DNA from: Elusimicrobia bacterium RIFOXYA2_FULL_39_19
Lineage (GTDB): Bacteria > Elusimicrobiota > Endomicrobiia > CG1-02-37-114 > XYA2-FULL-39-19
NCBI GenBank assembly: GCA_001800285.1
Contig: MGVC01000071.1
Location: 29,642-93,641 of the forward strand
Direction of reading: 5' to 3'
Length of the DNA: 64,000 nucleotides
Positions 29,730-44,707 of this stretch are shown piece by piece. The notes beneath the pieces are model-generated. The model had not been told where the DNA came from. It did not search any database and saw only the letters and a list, made by a program, of their open reading frames with translations. Within the stretch, counting starts at the first letter, position 1; each line of letters opens with the position of its first letter. Both the position numbers and the translations under genes were made by a program.

Positions 29730-30470
29730 ATGAGCAGAAGTTTTATCCTCGCAGTTTCGTTTTGCCTTACATTTGTTATCAATAGCTCTCTTATTCATGC
29801 CGGTGAAGTGCAGAAAATCCTTTCAAATAACCCATCCTACACAGTAGAACAAATAAAAATAATCGACAGCATAATAAACACGGCAATTTCAGAAAAACTG
29901 CCTGCGGATTACTTGTATTTACGTCTTCAGGAGGCCTCAGCAAAGAATATATCATTTGTCGTCCTAGAAGAAGCGTTGAATGAAAAAATAACAACCCTTA
30001 AAATTGCCAGTGAATTATTAAAAAATCGCAAGGAAAAAGGCAGTTTGCTTCCGGAAAATATTAAACTGCTTTCAGAGTTTATTGACAGGGGAATGGCTGT
30101 AAATGAGTTTAATGAGCTCTCCCGGTTATCAAAAAGCAAAAATATTGATATTGATAAAACTATACATACAATAAACTCATATCTGCTGTTAAGGGAAAAC
30201 TGTGTTGATCGGCCTTACTCTAAGCAGGTTTTTGAACTTTTGATAGAAGGAAAATACAGCTCAAAACAAATTAAAGAAATTGAATTACTGTTTACATATT
30301 CTTTTGAAAAAAACATTGATTTTAAAGAAGCCCGTGAAGTTATTCAACCTGGAGTACGTGCCGGTAAATCAACAGCAAAAATCAAAGGGGAATTCAGAAA
30401 AAAAAGAATAGCTGAAGTTAAAGAAGGTATGAAAGAATACGAGAAATATCCAAAAGCCATTAACAGGTAA
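29730..30470 (+). CDS. Exported helical protein of unknown function
   Basis: A 246-aa protein with a signal peptide (hydrophobic core FILAVSFCLTFVINSSLI, cleavage near HAGE). The mature part is almost entirely predicted helix, charged, with no cysteine motif. Helix-turn patterns such as YTVEQIKIIDSIINTAISEKLPADYLYLRLQEA and YSSKQIKEIELLFTYSFEKNIDFKEA look like two related halves. GGGAGG lies 7 bases before the ATG. It ends 2 bases before the ECF sigma factor gene, so the two are almost surely translated from one message. I do not recognise the family. Confidence 0.8.
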   Translation: MSRSFILAVSFCLTFVINSSLIHAGEVQKILSNNPSYTVEQIKIIDSIINTAISEKLPADYLYLRLQEASAKNISFVVLEEALNEKITTLKIASELLKNRKEKGSLLPENIKLLSEFIDRGMAVNEFNELSRLSKSKNIDIDKTIHTINSYLLLRENCVDRPYSKQVFELLIEGKYSSKQIKEIELLFTYSFEKNIDFKEAREVIQPGVRAGKSTAKIKGEFRKKRIAEVKEGMKEYEKYPKAINR

Positions 30471-30472
30471 AA

Positions 30473-31039
30473 ATGATCACGCAACAAAAAGACGACATTC
30501 TGCTGGTTAAAGAAGTACTGTTAGGCAATAACAGTGCTTATAAAGAAATCGTTGAAAAATATAAAAACGATGTCTATAATTTTGTATTAAAATTCTGCGG
30601 AAATACTAATGATGCAGAAGATGTTACCAGTGAAGCTTTTATAAGAGCCTACCTTAAAATCAGATCCTTCAAGATGGAGTATCAGTTTAAAAACTGGATT
30701 TTTACCATAGCTTTAAACATTGCCAGGGATATGCGTAGAAAAAAGAAATATAAAAGTAACTCTCTTGATATCTCTGTCGTTCTTGATGAAGCTGATGTTC
30801 CTACACAATTCAGTGATAACTCAAGTAATCCCGAAAAAGAGATTGCAAACAAAGAAGAAAAATTAAACATCACTGCTGCCATAGAATCACTGCCGTTAAA
30901 GTATGAAACTGCAATAGTCCTGCGCTATGTTGAAAATTTAAGCTATGAAGACATCGGTAAAATAATGGGCAAACCGTTAGGTACGGTTAAAACTCTTATA
31001 TTTCGGGCCCAGAAGATGTTGTATAAAAAACTAAAGTGA
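30473..31039 (+). CDS. ECF-family RNA polymerase sigma factor
   Basis: Extracytoplasmic-function sigma factor of 188 aa. Region 2 (FKMEYQFKNWIFTIALNIARDMRRKKKY) and region 4 (LPLKYETAIVLRYVENLSYEDIGKIMGKPLGTVKTLIFRAQKML, the helix-turn-helix for -35 recognition) are clear. The linker contains a Ser/Asn/Glu-rich stretch. It is followed 47 bases later by a zinc-finger anti-sigma protein, the usual pairing. Candidate targets are the surface genes directly downstream, though their promoter as read is sigma70-type. Confidence 0.95.
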   Translation: MITQQKDDILLVKEVLLGNNSAYKEIVEKYKNDVYNFVLKFCGNTNDAEDVTSEAFIRAYLKIRSFKMEYQFKNWIFTIALNIARDMRRKKKYKSNSLDISVVLDEADVPTQFSDNSSNPEKEIANKEEKLNITAAIESLPLKYETAIVLRYVENLSYEDIGKIMGKPLGTVKTLIFRAQKMLYKKLK

Positions 31040-31086
31040 AACATTTTCCATGCCTCAAACGTATATTAAGTAGAGGGGCTTAATAA

Positions 31087-31674
31087 ATGAAATGTGAAAT
31101 GGGAAGAATTGAACGCTACGTGTCCGGTGACATATCACCGGATGCTTCTATATTAATCAGTAAACACATAAAAAACTGCAAAGACTGTTTTGCATACTGT
31201 AACACGCTTAAACAGCTTGGCAGGTTATCAAAGTCGGTGAAAATCATGAGTGTTTCGCCGGATTTTACAGAAAAAGTATTTTCAAAAATTCCTCAAAAGC
31301 CCGCACCTGAAAAAGAAAATGCGGGTTTTTTCTTTTTTGTTCGCTGGGGTGTAATATTTGCTTCCTTATTAGTTATTACTGCCTCTCTTTTTCTTAAGGA
31401 AGACAACAAAAACATAAAGGTTAAGTTTTTTGTAGTAAATAATGATGCCCAGAAGATTTCACTGGCAGGGGATTTTAATAAGTGGAATGTAGACGCCCAT
31501 AAACTTGCCAAAAACGGAAATGCTTGGTATGTAGAAGTAAAACTGAAACCCGGCAGATACCAGTATATGTTTGTAATTGACGGCAATAAGTGGGTGCCGG
31601 ATGAAACAGCCATGGAATATGTTTATGACGGTTTTAACCAAAAAAATTCAATAATAGATACCACTAAAATATAG
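31087..31674 (+). CDS. Membrane anti-sigma factor with C-terminal CBM48-like domain
   Basis: A 195-aa protein in three parts. Residues about 1-40 are a zinc-finger anti-sigma domain (HIKNCKDCFAYC, the HxxxCxxC pattern). Residues about 82-102 form one membrane span. Residues about 110-195 form an E-set/CBM48 (AMPK glycogen-binding type) domain: ISLAGDFNKWNV, KPGRYQYMFVIDGNKWVPD. The topology puts the zinc finger in the cytoplasm and the carbohydrate-binding-like domain in the periplasm. It would hold the upstream ECF sigma factor until the outer domain senses its signal. The ligand is unknown. GAGGGG lies upstream. Confidence 0.88.
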   Translation: MKCEMGRIERYVSGDISPDASILISKHIKNCKDCFAYCNTLKQLGRLSKSVKIMSVSPDFTEKVFSKIPQKPAPEKENAGFFFFVRWGVIFASLLVITASLFLKEDNKNIKVKFFVVNNDAQKISLAGDFNKWNVDAHKLAKNGNAWYVEVKLKPGRYQYMFVIDGNKWVPDETAMEYVYDGFNQKNSIIDTTKI

Positions 31675-31678
31675 CAAA

Positions 31679-31692
31679 GTGATTTTTATCAC
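31679..31692. promoter_or_regulatory. CRP/FNR-family-like palindrome upstream of the giant surface-protein promoter
   Basis: GTGAT-TTTT-ATCAC is a perfect 5-bp inverted repeat identical to the core half-sites of CRP-type operators. It ends 5 bases before the -35 box (31698), centred about 47 bases before the probable transcription start. The position suits an activator or repressor. No regulator of this family is encoded in the window, so the binding protein is unknown. A 10-base match can arise by chance in AT-rich DNA. Confidence 0.5.
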
Positions 31693-31697
31693 AAATA

Positions 31698-31726
31698 TTG
31701 ACAAAGCAATATAATCGGGGTATAAT
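31698..31726 (+). promoter_or_regulatory. Consensus sigma70 promoter of the giant surface-protein gene
   Basis: TTGACA at 31698-31703, a 17-base spacer and TATAAT at 31721-31726 form an exact consensus promoter. Transcription would begin near 31733, leaving about 100 bases of leader before the AGGAGGGG RBS and the ATG at 31836. The TTG of the -35 box is what the ORF track uses as its start codon, so that start cannot be right. Confidence 0.85.
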
Positions 31727-31835
31727 AATGGCAGATGTTATGAAAATGTCTTCCAACCGTAATAAGATTCAATCCAACACTCACGAAACAATAATAATGA
31801 AAAAGAAAAATATTAAATTTTTAGGAGGGGAAATC

Positions 31836-34800
31836 ATGTTTAGAAAACTGTTTTCCGTTTGTACGTTTGCATTGGTTTTAAATGTTTTTGCAGTATCTGT
31901 AGCACAGGCAGGTGATCCGGTAATATCGTCAATTCAAGAGTATGGTATGGCAATTGATTTTGACACACTTCCAAGTACTATTACTTTTAAAACTTGGGAT
32001 GACGGAACATCAACTGATCTTATGTATGGTACAGGATTATTTGGTGTGCCTACCGGGTTATTTGGAATAGAAGATTGCGGAGTTGTAGATTTTACTACAT
32101 TAAATACCTTCACTAACACTGGGGCTTCTCCGGTAAATATCGCTGCAATTGCGGGCCACACTTATACTTTTAAAACTACTGCTGGAATACCGGTAAAACT
32201 ATATATTCAGACAATATCATATCCTTATGTCAACTTTGTTGCAGCTTATGACTACATGTCCGGTGGCGGAAAAGGGTTTTCCGGAAATATTAGTTATTTC
32301 GGTTCACAGCCAGGCAACATTTACATCGTTGCAGGTATAGGTACTCCACCCGGCTGGACTCCCAAAGGACAGGCAATGCTTGCTGCCCCTGGGCCTTTTA
32401 GTCTTAATGTATCAGAAAATGGCAGTGGTTATTATGTTTGGGCTTACAAAGATTCAAATTCAAATGCAACTTACGACAACGGAGTAGACCCGGTTGTAGT
32501 TGCTCCGGCCGGTCCATACATGATAAACGATAACATTATATCAGGTGTTTCTCTTGAACTACAGGACGCCGGCGGTTCTTCGGGTTCAATTTCAGGGAAC
32601 GTTAATTATTCAGGTATAGAAGGTTCAGGTCCGGGGAAAGCTATTGCCGGATTAAATGAACCATACGAGGGTAATCCTGCATGGCAGCCACAGCGAAGCG
32701 CACCAATTACAGTGCCTGGTTCCTTTAATATTACCAATCTTCCGGAATCTTCAGTTTATTATGTCCTTGTTTATAGAGATTCAAACAACAATGATTTTAA
32801 TGACTACGGTGAACCTTTCGGTTATTCCGGCCCGTATTCGGTTAACGGAAATGTTGTCTCCGGTGTGCCTGTCACAGTTAATGATGTCGGTGGTGGTGAA
32901 GGTGGCGGTCTTCAGGGGTATGTAGGATATTCAGGAGTTCAGACCGGTACTGTTTACATAAAGTTTAAAGATGGTGGTGTCAATGGAACGGATGCAGGGG
33001 AAACATCAATATTTGAATATAGCAATCCCAGCAACAGTTTCTTCAGTATGCCTCTTGAAAACTCCATTAATTATTATGTTTTTGCATTTATGGATGTAAA
33101 TGACAACTCTATATATGATGCTGGTGAACCTCAGTCTATTTGGGATGGTCCCAGAAGCGTTACAGGAAGCTGGACCAACATTAATATTATGCTGACCGAT
33201 GGCTCAGGCACCGGCCAGGGCATTGAAGGATTAGTAAATTACTCCGGAATTCAGTTCGGAGGTAAGGTAATAGTAGAAATATTTGATGGAGACCCGCAAT
33301 CAGGCGGAACATATGCTAATGGAATTAATTTGTTCGGTTTTCCAGACAACAGATATTACCACATTCCTTTATCAGTAGGTTCAAACTTTTATATCCGTGC
33401 TTACTTGGACACAAATTACAATGATACACTTGACGATGGTGAACCATTCAGTACCTGGGAAGGCCCAAGAAGCACCAGCTCAAACATGTTTACTATTATG
33501 GATCTTAACATGACCGACAGCGGTGAACCAGCAGGTGACGAGAACAAGGGCACTAATTATATTATGGGAGATGTATCTTTTACCGGTTCCTCACTTACCA
33601 GGCTGATAAGCAGATGTGGTATTGGTGATCAATATGGTATTTATCCCAATCAGCAATTGGGCTACATTCAGGGTTACGGTTGGCTTTACTTCAATTTTGG
33701 TAACCTTTCAGATGGTAATAATTTTTATGTAGAAGTTTTTGCAGACACTAACAACAATAACATATGTGACACCGGCATAGAGCCTAGAATATATCAAGGT
33801 CCTTTAACATTAAATGCTGACACCATGCCAATGCAGTATCTTCCTATAACTCTTGAATCAACCATATCGGATACAGATATGTCAGCAGGTACTATCACGG
33901 TTACCATAAGAGGCAAACTTGTTGATGAAAATGAAAATCCTATTGGCGGAGCTACTGTCTTTTTGATGGATCCGGGTGGTTTCAATAACTATGATTGGAA
34001 TACTTTTATCACTAAATCAAGCGTAACATCTAATGGTGCCTTGTCAGGTACTTCGCCTAATGATTATAATTTTGAATTTACAGCACAAAATGTAAAAATT
34101 AGCCAGGGTATGATGTATAACTATCAGTTTAAAGCTGTAAAATCAGGTTATAAACAGGCGTGGATGGGACAGTCATTCATGAACTTTGATGCGGGATCTA
34201 CAAAATATTTATGGATGTCCATTCAGCCCAGGCCGGTAGTCACGGTTTCTGATTTAGTGATTTCTCCAACCACAATTTCTCCAAATTTTGATGGCAAAGA
34301 TGACCGTGCTCAGATTAGTTTTAAATATTCTGTAGCAACAAATATGTCGTCTCCCGAAAACGGTGCTTCCATAAAATTTGTAATAGATGCTGATGATGAT
34401 GGCCTTTATGAGGTCATGGATAATTCTCTTTTCTTCTACTCAGGTGACGGCAAAAGATTTAAAAAGAAAAATTCTACAGATTTTATAAACTGGAGCAACC
34501 CCGATTACTCAAAACTAATCGGCCCTATATCAGAAGATTCTTACCAGCAGCTCGTAGCTGAGTATGACCCTACCATAGAATTCATGTGCGATGGTTGGGG
34601 CTTAGCTTTCAATGGAACAGATTCTTATTATCAGGATGTTTATATGATGTGGGAAGGAAGAGACAATTCATGGAATCCGCTTCCGGGTGGTACCTATACT
34701 GCAAAATTAATGATAGATGACCAGATGTTTGATGCTTCAGATGGGCTCACCTATTCAACTACCGTTCAGATAACTATTGAATCACAAGAAATTTATGGTA

Positions 34801-37800
34801 CAGTCACAGATAGTGACGGAGATCCTGTATCAGGTGCAAAAGTTGATGTTTACGGCCCTACAGGCGGCAATATGGCATTTACAAAAGCAGATGGTACTTT
34901 CCATGTTTCCGGTGTAAGGCCCGGAAGATATGGTATGAACGTAACAAAAGATGGTTATGTTGCAGTAAGCCTCAATGATGTATTAGTAGAAGAAAGCGGA
35001 GATACTGATGCAGGCACCATTGAGCTTGGTCAGGGTATTACTGTAACAGGTGTAGTAACCTTACCGAATCCTCCTTTGGCAGGAGCTTTAAAGGATAATA
35101 TGGGTTATTCTATGCAAAACCTCTGGGCAAATGTAGAGGTATGGCGCAGCGACGGGCCCGGTTGGTACAGGTCAGATTTCATGATACCTTTATCAAAGGT
35201 TGCACTTTCCAGCGTTACCGCAACCTACAGCATTTCTCTTGAACCCGGCGAATTTTCTATGAAAGTCAGGTCCCCGGGTTATGCCTCAAAAGAAGAGCAG
35301 ATTTCCATAGTAGACGGCCAGTCTGCACCGACAAAAGATTTTACTCTTGAAAGAACTGCCGAAATACGCGGCATGATAAAACTTCCAGTTTTTGAGTCTA
35401 CCACTACTGCTTCAGAGTTTTTTGATCAAACCGGCAGGTATTGGTTATGGATTAACTTAGGCGCCGAATCAGCAGACAGAAAAAATAGAACAGGTTGCGG
35501 TGTAGGTTTTAGCCGTGATGATGTAATTCTTAACGGTAAAACTACAGCAGAATTTACTCTTTTTGACCTGCTTCCTAATAAAAAATATACGCTTTTTGTA
35601 GAATCTGAAGGTACTTTTGCAAGACAGCAAAAAGTGTTTTATTCAAGCGCTGCCAGCTTGGGGACGATTGATCTTTCCTTCGGCGGTATACTTACTGGCA
35701 CAATAACTCTTAAGGATGATTGTGTAAGCCAGCTTGATGCCAATGATTATGGGCCTTTCCAGGGGGAAGGCAATATTCCCGATGGTATTCCAATTAATAT
35801 AAATGTGAGGTCTTTTGATGATAATTCATGGAATGGAACGATGGTTTATATAACTACTGTTGCTTTCCCATCCAGTGCCCAATATACAATAAGGGGTCTT
35901 TCATCAGGCAAGTACGAAATTAATGTAAATGCAGGAAGCGTAGATGTTGCTCCTGATATTCAAAACAGGATAGTAACATTATCCACTTCAGTAGCTATGA
36001 CTAAAACCGTTCCATTTGATATTGAAATGAGTAAACCTACTGGCAGTATGCAAGGAACAATAACAAACAATTCCGGTAATGCAATAGACTGGAATAAAGT
36101 ATGTGTTACTATTGCCTACCCAAGCACAAATGGACAGGACCATTCCGCTACCCCAATTCAAAGCGCAAGTAACCCCAATGTAGCCAACTATTCCGTTTCT
36201 GATCTGCCAACCGGGGAAGCTGTAATATGGGTATCAGAGTTTGATGTTGCTCCGTCAAGCATCAGCACGTTCGGCAAGGCTTCCGGAAATACAGGTACTT
36301 CCTGGGTTATACAGAATACGCGCAGCGGTGGAACTACAAGTCTTAATTTAGAGCTCAAGGCAGCTTCTACCATATACGTGAAAATTTATGGTTCTGTTAG
36401 TGCTATTTCGGACATAGTAGCAAAAACTACTACTTACGCTGAAATCAATGCTATAGGCGGCATGGGTACAGGAATAGCGCGTATACAATCAATATTTATG
36501 AGAAAATTCGCTGAACGTACGATAGCTAAACGAAAAGAAATGTATGGTGGTAAAGAACAAATTGAAAGTTCCACCATTAAAGACATGATGGATTTACAGA
36601 CACGTATCCCGAATATGAAAGAAACTTCACAGATTGCACTTTTCACAGGAGCCGGTACTGATGATGGTGGCTCCTATGCCAAATTTGAAATAAAAGGTCT
36701 CGAAGAAGGAATTTACTATGTGTATCCGCTTGTAAATACCAATTTTTACATTGAACCTGAATACGGTATGGGTGGTATGGGTGGCGACAATATGCCCCAA
36801 ATAGTAAAATATCCTTATGCATGCATTCCTTTTGAATCTTTTGAAGTTTTAAATGCAAGGGAAACAAAAGAAGTAGTATTTACCTTATCAGCAGGAGTGA
36901 ACCTTTCAGGTACTGTAAAAAGAGCTCAGGCCGGGGTATCTGAAAACATCACAGTTTCTCTTAAAAACCCTTTCTCAGGAGAGAATATAGCTACCACTCA
37001 GGTAGACTTCTCATCTCAGAATGCTATTGGTTTAACAACCAAGTCTTTTGCCTTTAATAAAGTATCACCAGGAAAATTCATTGTCACAGTCTGGTCGCCA
37101 AACTACAAAATTTACAGCAAGGAATATCAGTTCTCAGCTTCTTCAGAAAACGTATCCTTAGGCCAGATTTCGCTGGAAAAAGGCGCATCCATCATCGGTT
37201 CGCTGGTTGATGCAAATAATAAAGCTATCAGCCAGAATGTGCTGGTAGAATGCTGGGCCTATCCGTTTGTTGAAGGTTCATACAAAAATACCGATATGGC
37301 GGGTGTTACGCTTTCTTCAGAAACATCAACAGCAGGCAGATTTACCTTGCCTAACCTGCCCGGTGGTACATACATGATTAAAATTTCACCAAAGTCCGGC
37401 TCTACAGTAAATTACATGGTTACCACAAAAGCAGGTATCACAGTGCCAAATTCACAGGCAGAAGTGGATGCGGGAACCATAAAACTTAATAATGGTACTG
37501 CTGTCTCAGGTAAAGTTACTGTACCCGGTGCTTCTAATACAAAAATTCCTGTTTCAAACGTATTGGTGATTGCTTATCCGCAGAGCGTTCAGGATAGAGA
37601 AGGAAAAAATATCACTGCAACTACAGACCAAAACGGTTTATTCACCTTAAGAGGCCTGGATTTAAATGTGAAGTATTGGGAAATCAAGGCAAATGCCCGC
37701 AAAGATGACCCAACCCAGTGGACCGAAGTAATGAAAAAATACGGCCCAAGCATAAAATCAAACATACTTATTTCAACCAATACACCAACCCAATCATTTA

Positions 37801-40181
37801 ATCTTCTGCCTTCAAATGCAGAGCTTAAAGGAAACGTGAAGATCCCAGCAGCATATTCAAGTTATAAATTACTGCTTCCATTTCCTGTGCCTGGTATTGA
37901 AGTAGAGAACTTCCCAGCGGCGCTGGTACTATTACAGTCACCAGCAGACCTGGCCAGCGGTGACCCTATGTCAGGGTTAAAAGCTATTACAAATCCTGAC
38001 GGTTCATTTAACATAAAGGGATTAGTAGCAGGTACATATACATTAAAAGTGTTCGCTAAAGCAGGTACAGAAATGGGTAAATCAGGTCAAACTATTGTTG
38101 GGTTTGCTACTTTTGCTAAACAAGTAACCATATTAGCAAACACAGTAAATGATGCAGGTAATCTTGAACTGACCAGTGGTGCTTCTTTATCAGGAACCAT
38201 TAGAACCCAAATAGGTGGAAAAATTTCCAGCTCTGATGCTTCTATGGTTGTTGCCGCAACAAAAGATTTTAAAAAATTTGTGTTTGGTTCTCTTTCAATA
38301 AACCCTGTTACACTTGAAGTAAACAGCTATGAGATAATTGGCTTGGAACCAGCGGTAGACTATTATGTTGTGCTTCTTGCTCCTGAAACAGGTAAGGTTT
38401 TTGTGGATCCTACACTTACGAATGTTGCTACAAATGCTGAAAACAAAACCAAAAACATTACCTACAATGTTTATCCTCCAAATTTTGAAGCAAAAGTCAC
38501 AAAATTTACATACAAAAAAGAGTTTATAGAATCGTTTAAAAACCTTATTAGTCTGTTCCCGTCGTTAGCCGGGACTCTTACGCTTCCTATTCCTTTAGGT
38601 GATGATGACGAAGCATTATTGGTAGCTGATTTGCCAAGTGTAGACCTTGATCTTTATTACATTTACGGTTATGCCACAGAGCCTTTACAGCAGGAAAGCA
38701 TGACTCAGGTAATTACTACTGTTACCGCACAGGGAACAATAAAGTATCTTTCTACTTTTGAAGAAAAATTCCAGCAGAACAGAAAGGACTTCCTTGTAGT
38801 TTATGTGCCTTCAGAAAACGAGCTTCTTGGCGGCGCATCAACTTTTATATTTAACTTTCACGGTACAAACTCAAAAGACCTAATCAGAGATACACAATAT
38901 GAGTTCTGGTTTGGTGAAGATGCAAGAAGCGTAAAAATTATTAACCCTATGGCGGGCGGTACTGTAGAATTGGGTGAAGATGACCCATCGGGTATTTTAG
39001 TACCTCCGGGTTCCATTGAAGACGCAGTTGCTCTTAGCAGCGGTACCAGGGTTACTTGTATGAAAGTAACTGATGAATCTATCGGTGCACAGAAGAGAGG
39101 TAAGTATGCAAAAGGAGCCTTCTCATTCCCGATAAAGGCTTTTGATGCTGCAAAACCAGGTACCCAGGTAAGCAGTCTTTATGAAATGAGAGTTAACCTT
39201 ATATCAGGTCCGCTTGCTTCTATTTCACAAAATACGCCAATATCAGTTAACCTTCAGCTTTCCGATAATGCTTTAGATTATGATGAAGAAGACTTAAAGC
39301 TTTACAATTTGTCTTCCGACGGTACATCATGGGAAGAAGTAACAGGTATTCCTACTATTGACTGGGGCAAGTTTACACTAAGCATGAATGTGACCCATTG
39401 CTCAAAATTTGCAGTATTTGCAGTAGCAAGCAGTGATGATGACGGTGGCGGTGTAGATGTAGCTTCAACAACCGTAACTTATGATGTTACCACATCTACA
39501 TCTATTCAGTTAACCGGAGGCGGCAACACAGCAGACATTATTATTGACCCTGATACCTTTGAAGCATCCGGAAACGTTTCAGTAGTAGTTACGCTGAAAT
39601 CAGGACTTATCTGCACTACGGATGGGTTAACAGGCCTTGGTAAAGGTATAGAAATCACTGCTACAAGCGCTGGAAATACGTTACAGCCAAAGAAACCTAT
39701 TAAACTTAGCTATGTTTACACAGCGGCAGATGCTACCGGTGTTACCAATGAAAAAACTATTGGTATGGCTCGTGAAGATGCCGTAAATTCAAAATGGGTG
39801 CTTATTACAAATTCCAAGGTAGATACTACACTTAGAAAAGTAGAAGCTTCACTTACCCATTTAACTCTGTTCCAGTTAGTTGCCAGGGCAAACGCAAACC
39901 TCAACAGTGTGCAAGTGTTCCCGAATCCGTATAAACCGGGATCTGCCACAATTTATGACCGCGCATTGGGTATAAGGATTGATAATCTTACTACAGATGC
40001 CAAGGTAAAGATTTTCAATATTGCCGGCGAGCTTGTTTATGATGTTACGGCAACAGACGGTTATATTGACTGGCTGGCAGTAAATAAGAGCGGTAACGAA
40101 CTTGCAAGCGGTGTGTATATTTATTACATCACCGATACAGACGGACATAAAGCCAAAGGCAAGTTTGCAGTAATGAAATAA
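31836..40181 (+). CDS. Giant secreted repeat protein with carboxypeptidase-regulatory-like domains and FlgD/T9SS-like C-terminus
   Basis: A protein of about 2781 aa. Signal peptide MFRKLFSVCTFALVLNVF…AQAG starts at ATG 31836 behind AGGAGGGG (31823-31830); the longer ORF-track start lies in the promoter. About residues 143-673 hold five ~105-residue repeats, each with a Ca-loop-like DxNxNxxxDxGxEP and a BxGPxS element. Then come an Ig-like domain (SPNFDGKDDRAQISFKY) and many carboxypeptidase-D-regulatory-like beta modules (IYGTVTDSDGDPVSGAKVDVYG and others). The final ~95 residues (VFPNPYKPGS…KVKIFNIAGELVYDV…GVYIYYIT) match FlgD-Ig/type-IX sorting-like domains. Probably a cell-surface or extracellular structural protein. 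No enzyme domain was recognised. A terminator follows. Confidence 0.92.
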   Translation: MFRKLFSVCTFALVLNVFAVSVAQAGDPVISSIQEYGMAIDFDTLPSTITFKTWDDGTSTDLMYGTGLFGVPTGLFGIEDCGVVDFTTLNTFTNTGASPVNIAAIAGHTYTFKTTAGIPVKLYIQTISYPYVNFVAAYDYMSGGGKGFSGNISYFGSQPGNIYIVAGIGTPPGWTPKGQAMLAAPGPFSLNVSENGSGYYVWAYKDSNSNATYDNGVDPVVVAPAGPYMINDNIISGVSLELQDAGGSSGSISGNVNYSGIEGSGPGKAIAGLNEPYEGNPAWQPQRSAPITVPGSFNITNLPESSVYYVLVYRDSNNNDFNDYGEPFGYSGPYSVNGNVVSGVPVTVNDVGGGEGGGLQGYVGYSGVQTGTVYIKFKDGGVNGTDAGETSIFEYSNPSNSFFSMPLENSINYYVFAFMDVNDNSIYDAGEPQSIWDGPRSVTGSWTNINIMLTDGSGTGQGIEGLVNYSGIQFGGKVIVEIFDGDPQSGGTYANGINLFGFPDNRYYHIPLSVGSNFYIRAYLDTNYNDTLDDGEPFSTWEGPRSTSSNMFTIMDLNMTDSGEPAGDENKGTNYIMGDVSFTGSSLTRLISRCGIGDQYGIYPNQQLGYIQGYGWLYFNFGNLSDGNNFYVEVFADTNNNNICDTGIEPRIYQGPLTLNADTMPMQYLPITLESTISDTDMSAGTITVTIRGKLVDENENPIGGATVFLMDPGGFNNYDWNTFITKSSVTSNGALSGTSPNDYNFEFTAQNVKISQGMMYNYQFKAVKSGYKQAWMGQSFMNFDAGSTKYLWMSIQPRPVVTVSDLVISPTTISPNFDGKDDRAQISFKYSVATNMSSPENGASIKFVIDADDDGLYEVMDNSLFFYSGDGKRFKKKNSTDFINWSNPDYSKLIGPISEDSYQQLVAEYDPTIEFMCDGWGLAFNGTDSYYQDVYMMWEGRDNSWNPLPGGTYTAKLMIDDQMFDASDGLTYSTTVQITIESQEIYGTVTDSDGDPVSGAKVDVYGPTGGNMAFTKADGTFHVSGVRPGRYGMNVTKDGYVAVSLNDVLVEESGDTDAGTIELGQGITVTGVVTLPNPPLAGALKDNMGYSMQNLWANVEVWRSDGPGWYRSDFMIPLSKVALSSVTATYSISLEPGEFSMKVRSPGYASKEEQISIVDGQSAPTKDFTLERTAEIRGMIKLPVFESTTTASEFFDQTGRYWLWINLGAESADRKNRTGCGVGFSRDDVILNGKTTAEFTLFDLLPNKKYTLFVESEGTFARQQKVFYSSAASLGTIDLSFGGILTGTITLKDDCVSQLDANDYGPFQGEGNIPDGIPININVRSFDDNSWNGTMVYITTVAFPSSAQYTIRGLSSGKYEINVNAGSVDVAPDIQNRIVTLSTSVAMTKTVPFDIEMSKPTGSMQGTITNNSGNAIDWNKVCVTIAYPSTNGQDHSATPIQSASNPNVANYSVSDLPTGEAVIWVSEFDVAPSSISTFGKASGNTGTSWVIQNTRSGGTTSLNLELKAASTIYVKIYGSVSAISDIVAKTTTYAEINAIGGMGTGIARIQSIFMRKFAERTIAKRKEMYGGKEQIESSTIKDMMDLQTRIPNMKETSQIALFTGAGTDDGGSYAKFEIKGLEEGIYYVYPLVNTNFYIEPEYGMGGMGGDNMPQIVKYPYACIPFESFEVLNARETKEVVFTLSAGVNLSGTVKRAQAGVSENITVSLKNPFSGENIATTQVDFSSQNAIGLTTKSFAFNKVSPGKFIVTVWSPNYKIYSKEYQFSASSENVSLGQISLEKGASIIGSLVDANNKAISQNVLVECWAYPFVEGSYKNTDMAGVTLSSETSTAGRFTLPNLPGGTYMIKISPKSGSTVNYMVTTKAGITVPNSQAEVDAGTIKLNNGTAVSGKVTVPGASNTKIPVSNVLVIAYPQSVQDREGKNITATTDQNGLFTLRGLDLNVKYWEIKANARKDDPTQWTEVMKKYGPSIKSNILISTNTPTQSFNLLPSNAELKGNVKIPAAYSSYKLLLPFPVPGIEVENFPAALVLLQSPADLASGDPMSGLKAITNPDGSFNIKGLVAGTYTLKVFAKAGTEMGKSGQTIVGFATFAKQVTILANTVNDAGNLELTSGASLSGTIRTQIGGKISSSDASMVVAATKDFKKFVFGSLSINPVTLEVNSYEIIGLEPAVDYYVVLLAPETGKVFVDPTLTNVATNAENKTKNITYNVYPPNFEAKVTKFTYKKEFIESFKNLISLFPSLAGTLTLPIPLGDDDEALLVADLPSVDLDLYYIYGYATEPLQQESMTQVITTVTAQGTIKYLSTFEEKFQQNRKDFLVVYVPSENELLGGASTFIFNFHGTNSKDLIRDTQYEFWFGEDARSVKIINPMAGGTVELGEDDPSGILVPPGSIEDAVALSSGTRVTCMKVTDESIGAQKRGKYAKGAFSFPIKAFDAAKPGTQVSSLYEMRVNLISGPLASISQNTPISVNLQLSDNALDYDEEDLKLYNLSSDGTSWEEVTGIPTIDWGKFTLSMNVTHCSKFAVFAVASSDDDGGGVDVASTTVTYDVTTSTSIQLTGGGNTADIIIDPDTFEASGNVSVVVTLKSGLICTTDGLTGLGKGIEITATSAGNTLQPKKPIKLSYVYTAADATGVTNEKTIGMAREDAVNSKWVLITNSKVDTTLRKVEASLTHLTLFQLVARANANLNSVQVFPNPYKPGSATIYDRALGIRIDNLTTDAKVKIFNIAGELVYDVTATDGYIDWLAVNKSGNELASGVYIYYITDTDGHKAKGKFAVMK
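32262..33855 (+). repeat. Five tandem ~315-bp coding repeats in the giant protein
   Basis: Five in-frame units of roughly 100-115 codons. Each begins with a G-x-x-G-x-V-x-Y-S/F-G beta strand and contains YYV-x-A/V-Y/F-x-D-x-N-x-N-x-x-x-D-x-G-x-EP, then GP-x-S/T and a closing strand. The Ca-loop-like cores read DSNSNATYDNGVDP, DSNNNDFNDYGEP, DVNDNSIYDAGEP, DTNYNDTLDDGEP and DTNNNNICDTGIEP. Divergence between units is high at DNA level, so they are old duplications and not recent slippage. Confidence 0.8.
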
Positions 40182-40194
40182 AAGCACAAAACAT

Positions 40195-40228
40195 GGATGC
40201 CTGGCGTTAGCCGGGCATCCTTTCTTGT
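40195..40228 (+). terminator. Rho-independent terminator after the giant protein gene
   Basis: GGATGCC (40195-40201) pairs with GGCATCC (40214-40220); an inner GGC/GCC pair extends the stem across single mismatches to a GTTA loop. It is followed by TTTCTTGTGTT, a moderately T-rich tract. It lies 14 bases after the stop codon and would separate the giant gene from the FecR gene. Confidence 0.8.
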
Positions 40229-40254
40229 GTTCTGATTTTGAAATCTTAAAATTT

Positions 40255-40283
40255 CAACAACGGCCGCCGGAGTTGGCGGCAGT
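40255..40283 (+). promoter_or_regulatory. GC-rich leader hairpin upstream of the FecR-domain gene
   Basis: GCCGCC (40263-40268) and GGCGGC (40275-40280) form a 6-bp all-GC stem with a GGAGTT loop, flanked by AAC/GTT that can extend it. It stands out in AT-rich surroundings. The loop contains GGAG and the real RBS (AAAGGGGG) follows about 10 bases later. It may be an mRNA-stabilising or translation-modulating leader element. No T tract follows, so it is unlikely to be a terminator. Confidence 0.45.
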
Positions 40284-40301
40284 TAAAAAGGGGGATTCAT
40301 T

Positions 40302-41774
40302 ATGAAAAGCAAACTATTTGCAGTTTTAGTTTGTTTGGCAGTATGCGCGGGTTTTGCGTTTTCGGCAAAAACACCCAAAGTAATTGTTACCAGTTCCTAC
40401 GGCAAAGTTTTTGTGAAGTTAAACCAGACAGCAAATTGGACAAAGTGCTACACCGGTATGACCCTTGATGAAAATGCCTCTATCAAAACTGAAGCTAAAG
40501 CAAAAGCAGAAATTATGCTTTATGACGGCAGTAAACTAACCATAAAACCAAAATCAGAAATGTTTATAAAAATCCTTACAGACAGCCAGAAGGCTCTTGA
40601 ACAGAGGGCAGGCAAAGTAAGGTATAAAATATCCAAGCTGGCCCAGGGCAGATCTTTTGAATGCAAAACCCCTACCGCTGTTTGCTCTATCCGCGGTACA
40701 GAATTCTCCATGGATATCGGAGAAAATGACCAGACAGAATTAAAAGTATTTGAAGGCCTGGTAGCCGCAATTGGCACAGACGGCAAAGAGTTTGAAGTAG
40801 GCCCGGGAAAGAAAATGGAGTTCCTCACAAACGTTCCTCCGGAAGATCCGTCATCTTTTGATACTGAAGATAATGAAGAAGAATCAAAAAATCAACAGGA
40901 AAGCGAAAAAATGGCTACCCAGGCTGAAATAAATATGGACCTTTCAAAAGAAGCAGTACAGCAGATGGCAGCCACAGAAATGAAACTTGCTGAATACCAA
41001 CAGGGTAAAACTATCATTGATGTTTTTGGCAAGAGAGTAAGAATTGAGGAATATATAGTAAGAGGAAGCGCAGTAGGTTTAGGGGCAAACCAGTATAAAA
41101 TGGTTGTTTTAAACAGCAGAAAAGACCGTTTTGATTGGTATACCTGGATACCTACCTTTGCAAATAACTTTACAAGCATAGCAGAAGCCAATGAATGGGT
41201 AGGTTGGAGAAATGGCGATGTTGCCCCAGACAATTATTTACTTTCAACAGAATTTGGTGCAAGCAATACCGTTGATAATTCAAAATGGGGATATACTGGC
41301 GGCAGGGTAATTGATGATCCAAGCATTGCTCAGACACAAAACCTTGTTTTTGACAATTATTACTTTAAATTAAATGACGTTACCATGATCTCCTACGTGC
41401 CGGCAGGAGCAGCAGGGTCTCATATAAACAATTTTTCAACTGATGCTGTGTGGACTGTAAACGATCCCTCTGTATCCGGAACCATGACCAGTGCTCAGTT
41501 TGAGACTTGGTACAATACTGGTTATTTACTTCCTTCCGGTGATGATAAAATGCATTCGCGTTTTGAGTTTGGTTTTGCCGGCGGAACTTATACAGAAGAT
41601 ACCTATTCAATAGATGATTACGGTAAAGTTCCTTCCCTTACAGATTACGCAGGCGATAAGCTGAAATATAATATGGAACTTGTTATGTTCTATGACGGTT
41701 TTACCGGGACAGACAAAAAGATTGACCTTTGCGTAGAACCAAAAATCTTTATGGATTCAGGTTTAGTAAAGTAA
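40302..41774 (+). CDS. Exported FecR-domain protein
   Basis: A 490-aa protein with a signal peptide (LFAVLVCLAVCAGFAFSAKT). Residues about 30-175 are a FecR domain: GKVFVKLNQT…DENASIKTEAKAKAEIML…ALEQRAGKVRYKI…CSIRGTEFSMDI. Residues about 185-230 are Glu/Gln-rich and helical. The C-terminal ~250 residues have no recognised family and are rich in Asp, Asn and aromatic residues. Without a TonB receptor nearby it is better seen as a periplasmic or surface structural/sensory protein than as a classical iron-signalling FecR. It is flanked by other envelope genes. Confidence 0.87.
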   Translation: MKSKLFAVLVCLAVCAGFAFSAKTPKVIVTSSYGKVFVKLNQTANWTKCYTGMTLDENASIKTEAKAKAEIMLYDGSKLTIKPKSEMFIKILTDSQKALEQRAGKVRYKISKLAQGRSFECKTPTAVCSIRGTEFSMDIGENDQTELKVFEGLVAAIGTDGKEFEVGPGKKMEFLTNVPPEDPSSFDTEDNEEESKNQQESEKMATQAEINMDLSKEAVQQMAATEMKLAEYQQGKTIIDVFGKRVRIEEYIVRGSAVGLGANQYKMVVLNSRKDRFDWYTWIPTFANNFTSIAEANEWVGWRNGDVAPDNYLLSTEFGASNTVDNSKWGYTGGRVIDDPSIAQTQNLVFDNYYFKLNDVTMISYVPAGAAGSHINNFSTDAVWTVNDPSVSGTMTSAQFETWYNTGYLLPSGDDKMHSRFEFGFAGGTYTEDTYSIDDYGKVPSLTDYAGDKLKYNMELVMFYDGFTGTDKKIDLCVEPKIFMDSGLVK

Positions 41775-41828
41775 AGTATAGATGTTATTTAAAAATGCGT
41801 TAATTATTTAACGAAAGGACATGAATTA

Positions 41829-43025
41829 ATGATTAAAAAAATAATTTTAGCAGTCGGAGTTTTAAGTTCTTTTACTTTAGCGTCTTTTGGGTCTGATATT
41901 GCCACCGTATTAAATGTTAAGGCTTTCGGCGGTCAATATAGTTATGAAGGTGAATCTGCGTCAAACGGCAATCTAAACATTGATTTTGTGCCGGCTATGA
42001 AATTTAGCGATAAGTTTTCTTTTCTTCCCGCTCTTTATGTTGAGTATAGAGGCGTAAAGGATGTTACAGAGCTTGTTGGCGGAGAAAAACTGTTACAACA
42101 GTCCGCAAGTTACAATCTTTCTCTAAGGCCGGTCTATAAAATAGGCGAAAATACAAAACTAAGAGCAAAAGTAGGTTATTTTAAACAGATGATAATAGAA
42201 GCAAAGGACGAAAGCTGGGGCAATGGTGCTTTTGATTATGCAAAAACATCTGTAGGTTTGGACGTGTCAAAGAAAAATATAAATATTGGATATTCAATGT
42301 ACATCATAGCTTTCCCAAACTATGCTTCTCTGGTTTCGCAGACTTCAGGCCAGTTTGGTGTTTCAGCTACAGATATAGGCAAAAACTTGCTTGATTTTAT
42401 GGCAAATGAAGTCAGCCTGTATGGAAAATTTTATCCTTTATCAGGGTTTGTAGTAGACTGGTCTTTTGCTTACACAATGAAAAGTTTTAATGACCAGACT
42501 ATTCAGCTTGACAACGGTGTTTATAATGCGTCTCAGAAAAGAGCTGATACGGTAATGGGTGTTGGTCTGTTCCCGTCATTTGCCATAGTGCCCACTGGCC
42601 CATTAACTATGTTTGGTGGTTTGAGCATAAATTATGTTTCAAATGCTTCAAATCAGAACAGATATGACACAGCAAAAAAACAGTTTATTGAAAAAGACTA
42701 TGATTACACAGAAACAAAAATAGCACCAATAATAAGTTTTTCATTCAATACAGTTCCTTTAAAATTGGATTTTTCTTATGAAATTGGCTCAAGGGCTTAT
42801 TTAAACAGACTGGTTCAGGATGTGGCAGGTGTTTATGGAACTGACAAAATTAAAACAGATACAACTTATTTATCCTTAGGATTAACCTATCCATTATCAG
42901 AAAAGTTAAGCCTTAAGGGTATTTACGGTTCTTATAACTCAAGTTCAAGCATGAAATATGAGCAGGTTTATAAGTACACTTATCAGACTTCAAACATGTT
43001 TTTGGGTGTAGCTTACGAACTGTAA
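41829..43025 (+). CDS. Probable outer-membrane beta-barrel protein, unknown family
   Basis: A 398-aa protein with a signal peptide (IILAVGVLSSFTLASFGSD). The mature part alternates polar and hydrophobic residues in many short segments ending with aromatic residues (SYNLSLRPVYKIG, TKLRAKVGYFKQM, LSLGLTYPLSEKLSLKGIYGSY), and the protein ends MFLGVAYEL, as barrels do. AAAGGA precedes the ATG by 10 bases. It lies between the FecR and PorV-like genes with ~55- and ~70-base gaps. No sequence family is recognised. Confidence 0.75.
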   Translation: MIKKIILAVGVLSSFTLASFGSDIATVLNVKAFGGQYSYEGESASNGNLNIDFVPAMKFSDKFSFLPALYVEYRGVKDVTELVGGEKLLQQSASYNLSLRPVYKIGENTKLRAKVGYFKQMIIEAKDESWGNGAFDYAKTSVGLDVSKKNINIGYSMYIIAFPNYASLVSQTSGQFGVSATDIGKNLLDFMANEVSLYGKFYPLSGFVVDWSFAYTMKSFNDQTIQLDNGVYNASQKRADTVMGVGLFPSFAIVPTGPLTMFGGLSINYVSNASNQNRYDTAKKQFIEKDYDYTETKIAPIISFSFNTVPLKLDFSYEIGSRAYLNRLVQDVAGVYGTDKIKTDTTYLSLGLTYPLSEKLSLKGIYGSYNSSSSMKYEQVYKYTYQTSNMFLGVAYEL

Positions 43026-43096
43026 GTTATTGTATCTTATGCAAATATTTGGTATATATATATATTAGAATAAAAAATCATCAGGAGGTGTTAGAG

Positions 43097-44038
43097 ATGT
43101 TTAAAAAACTATGTTTGATGCTCTTGTCAGTTTGTGTAGTTTCCACAGTAAGTTTTGCGGGTGGAAAAGGTACTACCAGCGCAACATTTCTAAAGGTGGT
43201 AGGCGGTGCCAGATTAGCTGCTTTAGGCGGTGCTTATGGCGCGGTTTCCGGTGACATTGACTGCATAGGCTCTAACCCGGCAGGATTGGCTTCTTTAGAA
43301 AAATCTGAAGTTACCGCAACTTATGCTGTCTGGTTTCAGGAAATAAACTATCAGTATTTAGCTTATGCAATGCCCACAGGCGCAGGTACCTTTGGTCTTG
43401 CTATAAACATGCTTGGCGCTCCCGGCATGGACAGAAGAGATGCAAACGGAGATTTGGTTGATACAGCAGGCAATATTGTAACCACAGCAGAGAAGTTCGG
43501 CGCAAATGATTCAGCTATTACTCTTTCATATTCAAAATCCTTAGGTGAAAAAATGGCAATTGGTGTAAACGTAAAATCAATCACACAAAAGATTGATGAT
43601 AAATCTGGTTCAACAATTGGCCTTGACATTGGCGGCCTATACAAACTTTCTGAAAAAATAAACTTAGGTTTGGCGTTACAAAATGTTGGCGGTAGTGTAA
43701 AGTTCTTAGATGTTGCAGACCCTATTCCTACAAACCTGAAGATTGGTTCAAAGTATCAGGCTTCAGAAAAATTAATGGTAGCTCTTGATATAAATATTGG
43801 TACTGCAGATAGCGTTTCTACTGTTAATTTAGGCACCCAGTATACAGTAGCTATGGGTGAAAATATGGCTCTTCCTTTAAGACTTGGATACCGTACCGGT
43901 ATTGAATCAGGTGGCATGTCAGGTATTTCTTTGGGTTTAGGTTTTGAGCTTAAAAAATCATTCGGTGTAGATTTTACCTGGGCCCCTTATGGCGACCTTG
44001 GAGACACAATCAGAGCAGGCCTTGGCTATAAATTCTAA
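43097..44038 (+). CDS. PorV/PorQ-like (UPF0164) outer-membrane protein
   Basis: A 313-aa beta-barrel protein with signal peptide CLMLLSVCVVSTVSFAG. The family start ATFLKVVGGARLAALGGAYGAVSGDIDCIGSNPAGLASL is diagnostic of the PorV/PorQ/UPF0164 group; the end reads GDLGDTIRAGLGYKF. PorV is an outer-membrane component of type IX secretion in Bacteroidetes, but this wider family also occurs in phyla without that system. The ORF track start at 43049 is an upstream TTG; AGGAGGTG (43083-43090) precedes ATG 43097, which begins the signal peptide. A strong terminator follows. Confidence 0.9.
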   Translation: MFKKLCLMLLSVCVVSTVSFAGGKGTTSATFLKVVGGARLAALGGAYGAVSGDIDCIGSNPAGLASLEKSEVTATYAVWFQEINYQYLAYAMPTGAGTFGLAINMLGAPGMDRRDANGDLVDTAGNIVTTAEKFGANDSAITLSYSKSLGEKMAIGVNVKSITQKIDDKSGSTIGLDIGGLYKLSEKINLGLALQNVGGSVKFLDVADPIPTNLKIGSKYQASEKLMVALDINIGTADSVSTVNLGTQYTVAMGENMALPLRLGYRTGIESGGMSGISLGLGFELKKSFGVDFTWAPYGDLGDTIRAGLGYKF

Positions 44039-44065: not shown

Positions 44066-44099
44066 AAATAACCTCGCTAAAGAGCGGGGTTATTTTTTT
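44066..44099 (+). terminator. Strong rho-independent terminator closing the surface-protein locus
   Basis: ACCTCGCT pairs with AGCGGGGT around an AAAG loop; flanking A/T bases extend the stem to about 13 bp, followed by a run of seven T residues. It is 27 bases after the PorV-like stop and directly before the next gene, so it separates the two transcription units. Confidence 0.93.
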
Positions 44100-44101
44100 A
44101 T

Positions 44102-44707
44102 ATGAAAAAAATACTACTATCACTTTTTATAATTTATGGACTGACTACTTCTGCCTTTTCTCAGCAGAACAATGAAGTATTTGTATCTAAGGCTGAGTTT
44201 TATACATCCAATAATTGCGGATATGTAAACATTATTTTTAATGATCTCGTAACGGTTAACGAAATTTTGATTAAAAGCATTAACGGAAAAAAAGTTCCGG
44301 AGTTTCCGCGTTATATAAATAATTCAGGTAAAATCTACGAGCAGGTTAAGGTAGTAAATCGTAAATTGTATGAAAGTATAGTAAAGATTCTTGAAACAGA
44401 AACTCCGGTTTCAATAAATTCCGGTTACAAAGAAATTAATTATGAAATTACTAAGTTTTCAATTTTAAAGAAAAGCAAATCATCACTTAAAGCTTTTGCA
44501 GAAGTGACTTTTGACGGTTCCCTGTCTGTAGAGTGCAAGGTGTTTGAAGGTAAAAACGGTTCCTGGATATCATGGCCGGCAAGGAAAGAAGGCAATTCAT
44601 GGGTAAAATTGGTGTTTTTAAGGAAAAAATATAAGGAAAAGATAGAAAAAATTCTGTTAAAAAGGTATGCAGATATAAAAAGTGAAGCCTATAACGGCTG
44701 GGAATAG
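44102..44707 (+). CDS. Exported protein with two SpoVG-like units
   Basis: A 201-aa protein with a signal peptide (ILLSLFIIYGLTTSAFSQQ). Residues about 110-190 read like SpoVG: LKAFAEVTFDGSLSVECKVFEG, then NGSWISWPARK and KKYKEKIEKILLKRY. Residues about 25-95 repeat the pattern more loosely (VFVSKAEFYTSNNCGYVNIIFNDLVTVNEILIKSI…YESIVKILE). SpoVG proteins are normally cytoplasmic nucleic-acid-binding proteins of one unit, so a duplicated, exported version is unusual. The ATG lies 2 bases after the terminator's T tract, so its own promoter is not obvious and expression may rely on read-through. Confidence 0.72.
   Translation: MKKILLSLFIIYGLTTSAFSQQNNEVFVSKAEFYTSNNCGYVNIIFNDLVTVNEILIKSINGKKVPEFPRYINNSGKIYEQVKVVNRKLYESIVKILETETPVSINSGYKEINYEITKFSILKKSKSSLKAFAEVTFDGSLSVECKVFEGKNGSWISWPARKEGNSWVKLVFLRKKYKEKIEKILLKRYADIKSEAYNGWE

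Follow-up and report, generated by a model that had tools for sequence, protein, structure and literature searches.

A conserved Elusimicrobiota gene cassette combining a giant repeat protein, a FecR-domain protein, a barrel and a PorV-family protein, with features of type IX secretion

Do seven neighbouring genes in the genome of an Elusimicrobia bacterium make a single structure of the cell surface and, if so, how would it be exported and controlled? The genes occupy positions 29730-44038 (forward strand, as for all genes below) of the window, the whole 64,000-nucleotide stretch of DNA analysed here. Its genome is numbered G000; the other G numbers denote compared genomes. An earlier note on this DNA had described seven same-strand genes with six exported or membrane products, ended by a strong terminator, and had read them as one surface system with an ECF sigma/anti-sigma pair as control. 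The description was borne out: the coordinates confirm seven co-directional open reading frames, six of the products have a signal peptide-like N-terminus or a transmembrane (TM) helix, and a hairpin with a 13-bp stem and a T tail closes the set at 44066-44095. A second strong terminator-like hairpin (11-bp stem, 8 GC pairs, T-rich tail) lies at 40195-40220, directly after the gene for a giant protein, which makes a single simple operon of all seven genes improbable.

The gene neighbourhood was compared in relatives, and synteny is kept across many Elusimicrobiota families, which supports the idea of one conserved surface system. The conserved core consists of a FecR-domain protein, a 16-strand barrel, a giant protein with CarboxypepD repeats and a T9SS-A-type domain, and a putative carrier of the PorV family. 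In a scan of 84,980 genomes, the named loci all belong to Elusimicrobiota, save two from genomes titled only 'bacterium'. An open reading frame of at least 1000 aa stands next after the FecR-barrel pair in 40 of 51 named loci, and PorV then follows in 16 of 18.

The giant is an exported protein of 2781 aa with CarboxypepD_reg repeats (31836-40181; PF13620, 1.2e-33). We placed its start at ATG 31836 from an AGGAGG motif and the signal peptide MFRKLFSV; TTG 31698 was rejected as a start, since this TTG belongs to a perfect promoter, as its -35 box. No riboswitch was detected in its 5' region with Rfam. The T9SS-like module previously seen at its C-terminus was confirmed at 39915-40166, where the match to the type A sorting domain exceeds the cut-off (TIGR04183, 25.9 bits against 23; CHU_C, 1.2e-5). 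Giants of distant cassettes retain the CarboxypepD repeats and a C-terminal module of FlgD_ig/CHU_C type.

Three genes precede the giant. The first encodes an exported helical protein of 246 aa with a signal peptide and no family (29730-30470), whose orthologues stand 5' of the sigma gene in G001, G002, G006 and G049. It is followed by an ECF-type sigma factor (30473-31039; Sigma70_r2, 8.9e-16; Sigma70_r4_2, 2.4e-15; TIGR02937, 113 bits), which lacks region 3 but has regions 2 and 4, and by a probable anti-sigma factor (31087-31674) with one TM helix at about residues 79-97 and an extracytoplasmic AMPK1_CBM/CBM48 domain (1.8e-9). The zf-HC2 match of the latter is weak (0.053; 14.1 of 22.2 bits, below the cut-off), and its HxxxCxxC-type motif is lost in G001 and G002.

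The extracytoplasmic CBM48 domain and the position of the pair favour a reading in which the seven genes form one ECF-driven operon or regulon and the anti-sigma factor senses the assembled structure or a glycan. Sigma and anti-sigma genes, mostly with the 246-aa gene, lie directly 5' of the cassette in six genomes from four families (G000, G001, G002, G006, G007 and G049), that is, three genomes of the window's family and three other lineages. We nevertheless consider this reading unlikely, because just one of the 68 named loci has the module upstream, a second cassette of G007 lacks it, G003 and G004 have it without any cassette, and the giant gene that follows it here has its own terminator and a perfect, conserved sigma-70 promoter. 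The ECF pair thus stands as the companion of a minority of cassettes. A role as their general control is not supported, given the 67 of 68 named loci without it and a CRP-type operator that recurs before cassettes throughout the phylum.

That promoter, TTGACA-N17-TATAAT, matches the sigma-70 consensus at 12/12 positions (31698-31726), and the corresponding position in G001 and G002 also has a 12/12 match. An unrestricted scan gave 41 sites versus 49 in shuffles, with no excess; we therefore rely on the 12/12 site alone, which three genomes conserve. At the promoter lies a palindromic operator of the type TGTGA-N6-TCACA, AGTGATTTTTATCACA (31678-31693), centred about -47.5 from the predicted transcription start and likewise conserved in G001 and G002. 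CRP-type sites precede cassettes across the phylum, and all of the strict ones (11/11) fall within cassette upstream regions (80 loci; P 8e-15, best of 256 half-sites). A CRP-family gene is present in the window genome (G000:C77; cNMP_binding plus HTH_Crp_2, with an RETVVR helix), and one adjoins the cassette in G024, G038 and G049. The recognition helix of the family has a conserved RE-x3-R, like that of E. coli CRP. Full-length CRP was not found in G001 and G042, both of which bear cassettes. A cyclase adjoining a FecR gene (G000:C14) was considered as a source of cAMP and found no support, with no Pfam match. From operator and helix we infer that a CRP-family regulator may control the giant.

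The FecR-domain protein (40302-41774) has a signal peptide followed directly by a FecR-type domain at residues 60-154 (PF04773, 2e-14), and then a conserved C-terminal domain without a solved relative. An N-terminal cytoplasmic anti-sigma domain with a TM helix before the FecR domain is not present in this exported protein, and we therefore rejected its identification as a FecR-type anti-sigma regulator. In the structure model (pLDDT 81) the N-half matches FecR/PupR periplasmic domains (2.7e-7) and also resembles the MpAFP anchoring domain 5ix9, with a weak NF033682 match; a profile search against the PDB gave nothing useful. The next gene (41829-43025) encodes a 16-strand outer-membrane beta-barrel of no known family, modelled by AlphaFold with pLDDT 90 and pTM 0.84. 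Its profile found no sequence relative in the PDB, and the fold of the model gave only generic porin/AlgE matches, the best being AlgE, CymA and porins. These two proteins are the tightest pair in the cassette: the barrel gene follows FecR in 58 of 70 named loci, and their Mantel correlation is r=0.941 (0/2000 permutations), a co-occurrence test that is confounded by shared ancestry.

Such tight pairing, the porin-like matches of the modelled barrel and the likeness of the FecR protein to both signalling and anchoring domains would also suit an independent pore or an uptake/sensing unit, of retention-module or porin-like kind, merely co-located with the giant. This is improbable in our view, as a large repeat open reading frame and PorV come next in most loci, and FecR genes adjoin giants outside the cassette too.

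The last gene encodes a PorV/PorQ-family barrel (43097-44038; NF033709, 158.6 bits, cut-off 90), starting at ATG 43097 rather than TTG 43049, and is the proposed carrier of the giant, from which the FecR and barrel genes separate it. It falls short of the PorV equivalog model (62.6 of 250 bits); its profile has a sole match in the PDB, PorV 6h3i_F (E 6.6e-24), from the same solved complex as SprA. Among 34 cargo-PorV gene pairs elsewhere, PorV is always just downstream on the same strand (0 upstream, 0 opposite). With at least 29 matches in the window genome the PorV family is very large, so the cassette is not peculiar in having a PorV with a gene for a C-terminal sorting domain (CTD).

Whether this PorV has a T9SS secretion partner was a question left by the earlier note, and a SprA homologue is indeed encoded elsewhere in the same genome (G000:C81). 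The SprA_N Pfam search gave no match even in controls, and TIGR04189 was used instead; the homologue matches at 5e-25 with 86.9 of 200 bits (87-102 across homologues), below the curated cut-off. SprA is the sole PDB match of its profile (E 4e-26, three colinear stretches). Homologues occur in 45 of 60 relatives, and the SprA locus holds a paralogous FecR/275-aa/barrel/PorV-like set in G000, G001, G009 and G014. The window genome has 67 TIGR04183 sorting-domain matches, and co-occurrence of CTD and SprA-like proteins is 40/5/3/12, again a comparison confounded by shared ancestry. PorU/C25 and GldM/PorM were each found in 0/60 genomes, with no match in any control genome either; matches to the PorU model were rejected as PorU, covering the C-terminal domain only. 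Three features of T9SS are thus present at the sequence level, namely a SprA homologue (a distant one), a PorV-family barrel and cargo with sorting domains; as PorU/C25 and GldM were not found, the system is not classed as canonical T9SS. That the SprA-like protein is instead a barrel for envelope lipid or LPS, leaving the cassette in need of another exporter, is very unlikely: its gene does lie beside LptF/LptG at almost every locus examined, and Endomicrobiaceae are reported to lack LptD (PMC11257099), but the homology is to SprA, not LptD, its presence tracks C-terminal sorting domains, and PorV-family carriers are abundant.

We think it reasonably probable that the cassette builds one outer-surface structure, with export through SprA-PorV and control by CRP. 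Under the control of a CRP-family protein, the giant would be transcribed from a sigma-70 promoter of its own, cross the inner membrane via its signal peptide, have its C-terminal sorting domain passed to the dedicated PorV-type carrier, and exit through the SprA-like outer-membrane translocon. Anchoring or receiving it at the outer membrane would fall to a fixed pair, the 16-strand barrel and the FecR-domain protein. The window's family, like a few others, may have added the ECF sigma and CBM48 anti-sigma factors, probably for sensing of glycan or envelope state.

More tentatively, Elusimicrobiota may possess a T9SS-like pathway of their own, with a compact SprA lacking PorU/GldM, a downstream PorV for each large cargo, and a phylum-specific, CRP-controlled FecR/barrel pair fixing giants on the surface. 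The cassette and the distant SprA-PorV suggest that type IX secretion exists, in a relaxed form, beyond the range accepted for it. In so distant a phylum, a SprA/PorV/sorting-domain set whose PorV genes are paired with cargo, and which lacks the known sortase and motor, would set the minimal translocon apart from what Bacteroidota have added, and would bear on the powering and evolution of type IX secretion. It would also give an initial look at how a little-studied, mostly uncultured phylum displays proteins on its surface and regulates this display.

T9SS of Flavobacterium and Porphyromonas (SprA/Sov plus PorV) shares with this system the SprA homologue, the PorV-family barrel and the type A C-terminal cargo domains. 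Here, however, SprA is shorter and scores below the curated cut-off, PorU/C25 and GldM were not found, PorV-family proteins are numerous, many of their genes forming a pair with a single cargo gene, and the host phylum lies outside FCB. T9SS has been reported in Bacteroidetes only (PMC4793230) or in FCB (PMC11205867), and the literature searched, largely outside subscription journals, held no description of it in Elusimicrobiota. The sprB-sprF pair of Flavobacterium johnsoniae likewise codes for a giant exported protein of the surface and a barrel in the outer membrane dedicated to it, SprF being the outer-membrane carrier/anchor of the giant adhesin SprB (PMC12635249), whereas the present cassette has a type A domain, a PorV-type carrier and, in addition, an unrelated 16-strand barrel and a FecR-domain protein. 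Adhesin retention of the LapA/MpAFP type resembles it in the membrane-anchoring domain like the N-half of the FecR protein, which here is a separate protein and not the N-terminus of the giant; no LapE-type exporter was identified. Anti-sigma factors of the RsgI type (Clostridium thermocellum) also carry carbohydrate-binding domains (PMC12203970, PMC4711584) on the extracytoplasmic side, unlike the present case in which the sigma factor is of ECF type, the domain is CBM48 and the host is diderm. CRP/FNR regulons, finally, have in common with the cassette the TGTGA-N6-TCACA operator and the CRP-type recognition helix, but the predicted target here is a surface secretion cassette.

The seven ORFs of the block at 29730–44038 were confirmed by an ORF check with the strand and coordinates first proposed for them, and inspection for N-terminal signals and transmembrane segments bore out that six of the seven products are exported or membrane proteins. 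The first gene encodes a 246-aa exported helical protein (exp246). Domain searches and family models identified an ECF sigma factor, an anti-sigma candidate bearing a CBM48 domain, a giant exported protein of 2781 aa with CarboxypepD_reg repeats and a T9SS type A module (CTD) at its extreme C-terminus, an exported FecR-domain protein, a barrel protein assigned to no family, and a PorV-family barrel. The start of PorV was moved to 43097 and that of the giant to 31836, preceded by AGGAGG; a perfect TTGACA-N17-TATAAT promoter has its −35 hexamer at the TTG of 31698 and scores 12/12 also in two related genomes, G001 and G002. Since the giant has this promoter of its own and a terminator hairpin directly 3′ (40195–40220), and a second terminator (44066–44095) ends the cassette, the block probably comprises at least two transcription units. 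In G002 and G038 (loci L031:10636-10642 and L033:8374-8585) the giant gene is split between two frames, by sequencing error, pseudogene formation or frameshift. Directly after the cassette, here (44102–44707) as in G001 and G002, lies a gene whose product is predicted to be exported and ends in a SpoVG domain (PF04026, 3.5 × 10−11); SpoVG is usually cytoplasmic.

The neighbourhood recurs in relatives, and the gene system is real. The whole set keeps its order in G001 and G002. Cassettes read giant-FecR-barrel-PorV in G038, G058 and G012, and FecR-barrel-giant-PorV in G024 (twice), G009, G007 (twice) and G042, and giants in cassettes of permuted order retain the same architecture. In 79 named loci, collected via FecR so that the figures are conditional on it, the barrel follows FecR in 58/70, FecR-barrel is followed by a large ORF (1000 aa or more) in 40/51, and PorV comes after the large ORF in 16/18. 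FecR and barrel distances correlate across 62 loci (r=0.941, reached by 0/2000 permutations), with a contribution from shared descent. When 84,980 species genomes were scanned for relatives of the FecR protein, the best 79 records (35 weaker matches aside) were Elusimicrobiota throughout, bar two titled only 'bacterium'.

Control by the ECF pair, as the earlier note had it, is mostly replaced. Sigma and anti-sigma lie upstream in only 1/68 of the named loci. They precede the G007:C3 cassette; G006 has exp246-sigma-anti-sigma, then FecR-barrel, and G049 has exp246-sigma-anti-sigma-FecR at a contig end. A candidate CRP-type operator, AGTGATTTTTATCACA (31678–31693), stands just 5′ of the giant promoter and is kept in three genomes, 4–5 nt from the −35 box. 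The window and the 79 named loci, 1.36 Mb together, contain 11 strict WGTGA-N6-TCACW sites, all upstream of FecR, giant or exp246; such regions make up 5.3% of bases (P = 8 × 10−15, optimistic because the regions were drawn after the first sites were seen and related genomes are not independent). The ranking is robust: this half-site comes top of 256, ahead of AT runs at 8 × 10−5. Another FecR gene of the window's genome (G000:C63) has a CRP-type site and an 11/12 promoter. The same genome encodes CRP-family proteins with an RE-x3-R recognition helix, that of E. coli CRP. Full-length CRP occurs in 14/17 genomes with FecR genes versus 3/43 others, a co-occurrence that shared ancestry confounds. 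Three lineages, G038, G024 and G049, carry a crp-hisS pair 2.6–4.5 kb upstream of the cassette (L033:2672-4771, L036:11383-13400, L103:10796-12875). The ECF pair is therefore an add-on of some lineages. A glycan is a plausible ligand of its extracytoplasmic CBM48: of the residues that bind glucan in AMPK-beta, the first tryptophan is kept in all eight proteins compared, while the window's protein lacks the lysine. Adjacent ORFs with many CBM48/AMPK1-type domains occur at G007:C2:117202-127987.

The FecR-protein model (pLDDT 81) matches FecR and PupR periplasmic domains over its first half and the membrane-anchoring domain 5ix9 over 62 columns; structure comparison found no solved relative of its conserved second half. 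A true FecR regulator has a cytoplasmic half, whereas the cassette protein has none. For the barrel protein, modelling gave a confident 16-strand structure (pLDDT 90, pTM 0.84) that resembles generic porins and exporters only. We infer that these two proteins anchor the giant; homology, synteny and motif conservation likewise point to export, a carrier function and CRP control.

The secretion side is stronger than the earlier note could know, for the sov/sprA gene it proposed to seek has a distant homologue in the window's genome (G000:C81). TIGR04189 (SprA) matches colinear stretches of a single ∼1760-aa protein in 45/60 relatives, this one included, at 87–102 bits for the whole protein, below the 200-bit cut-off. 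A profile of ten such proteins found SprA (6h3i and relatives) as sole match in the whole PDB (E = 4 × 10−26, three colinear stretches), and the cassette-PorV profile found only PorV from the SprA complex (6h3i, E = 6.6 × 10−24). TIGR04183 sorting domains number 67 in G000, at least 80 in G002 and 34 in G038. Across 60 genomes, 40 have both CTDs and a SprA homologue, 5 SprA only, 3 CTDs only and 12 neither (Fisher, 1.5 × 10−6), the smallest genomes lacking both. G000 has at least 29 PorV-family matches. Among the best 150 CTD and best 150 PorV matches, 34 pairs in 15 genomes (G000 included) have PorV immediately downstream of the CTD gene on the same strand, none upstream or opposite.

In a second giant-FecR layout (L210, L212, L213, L214), another giant ORF that ends in a CTD has downstream of it a ∼500-aa protein (in L210 and L213, CarboxypepD_reg/CARDB) and a FecR-domain protein of smaller size. 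Very long open frames of 17343 and 11814 aa, at G024:C6:90200-90490 and G049:C28, carry a sorting-domain or CBM48-like match.

The SprA-like gene adjoins LptF/LptG in nearly all loci (L093:1052-8587, L095, L097, L098, L099, L100, L101, L106) and, in G000, G001, G009 and G014, a paralogous FecR/275-aa/barrel/PorV-like set. Endomicrobiaceae reportedly lack LptD (PMC11257099); given this and the LptF/LptG neighbours, a link to lipid export is possible.

PorU/C25 and GldM, the latter from the PorM/GldM part of the porK-N search also proposed, gave no match in 60 genomes, an absence of evidence as no control genome matched either, and for this reason we do not class the set as a T9SS. Its likeness to that system, in whose manner it would work, lies in the SprA homologue, the PorV-family barrel and the type A CTDs, all present in the window's genome.
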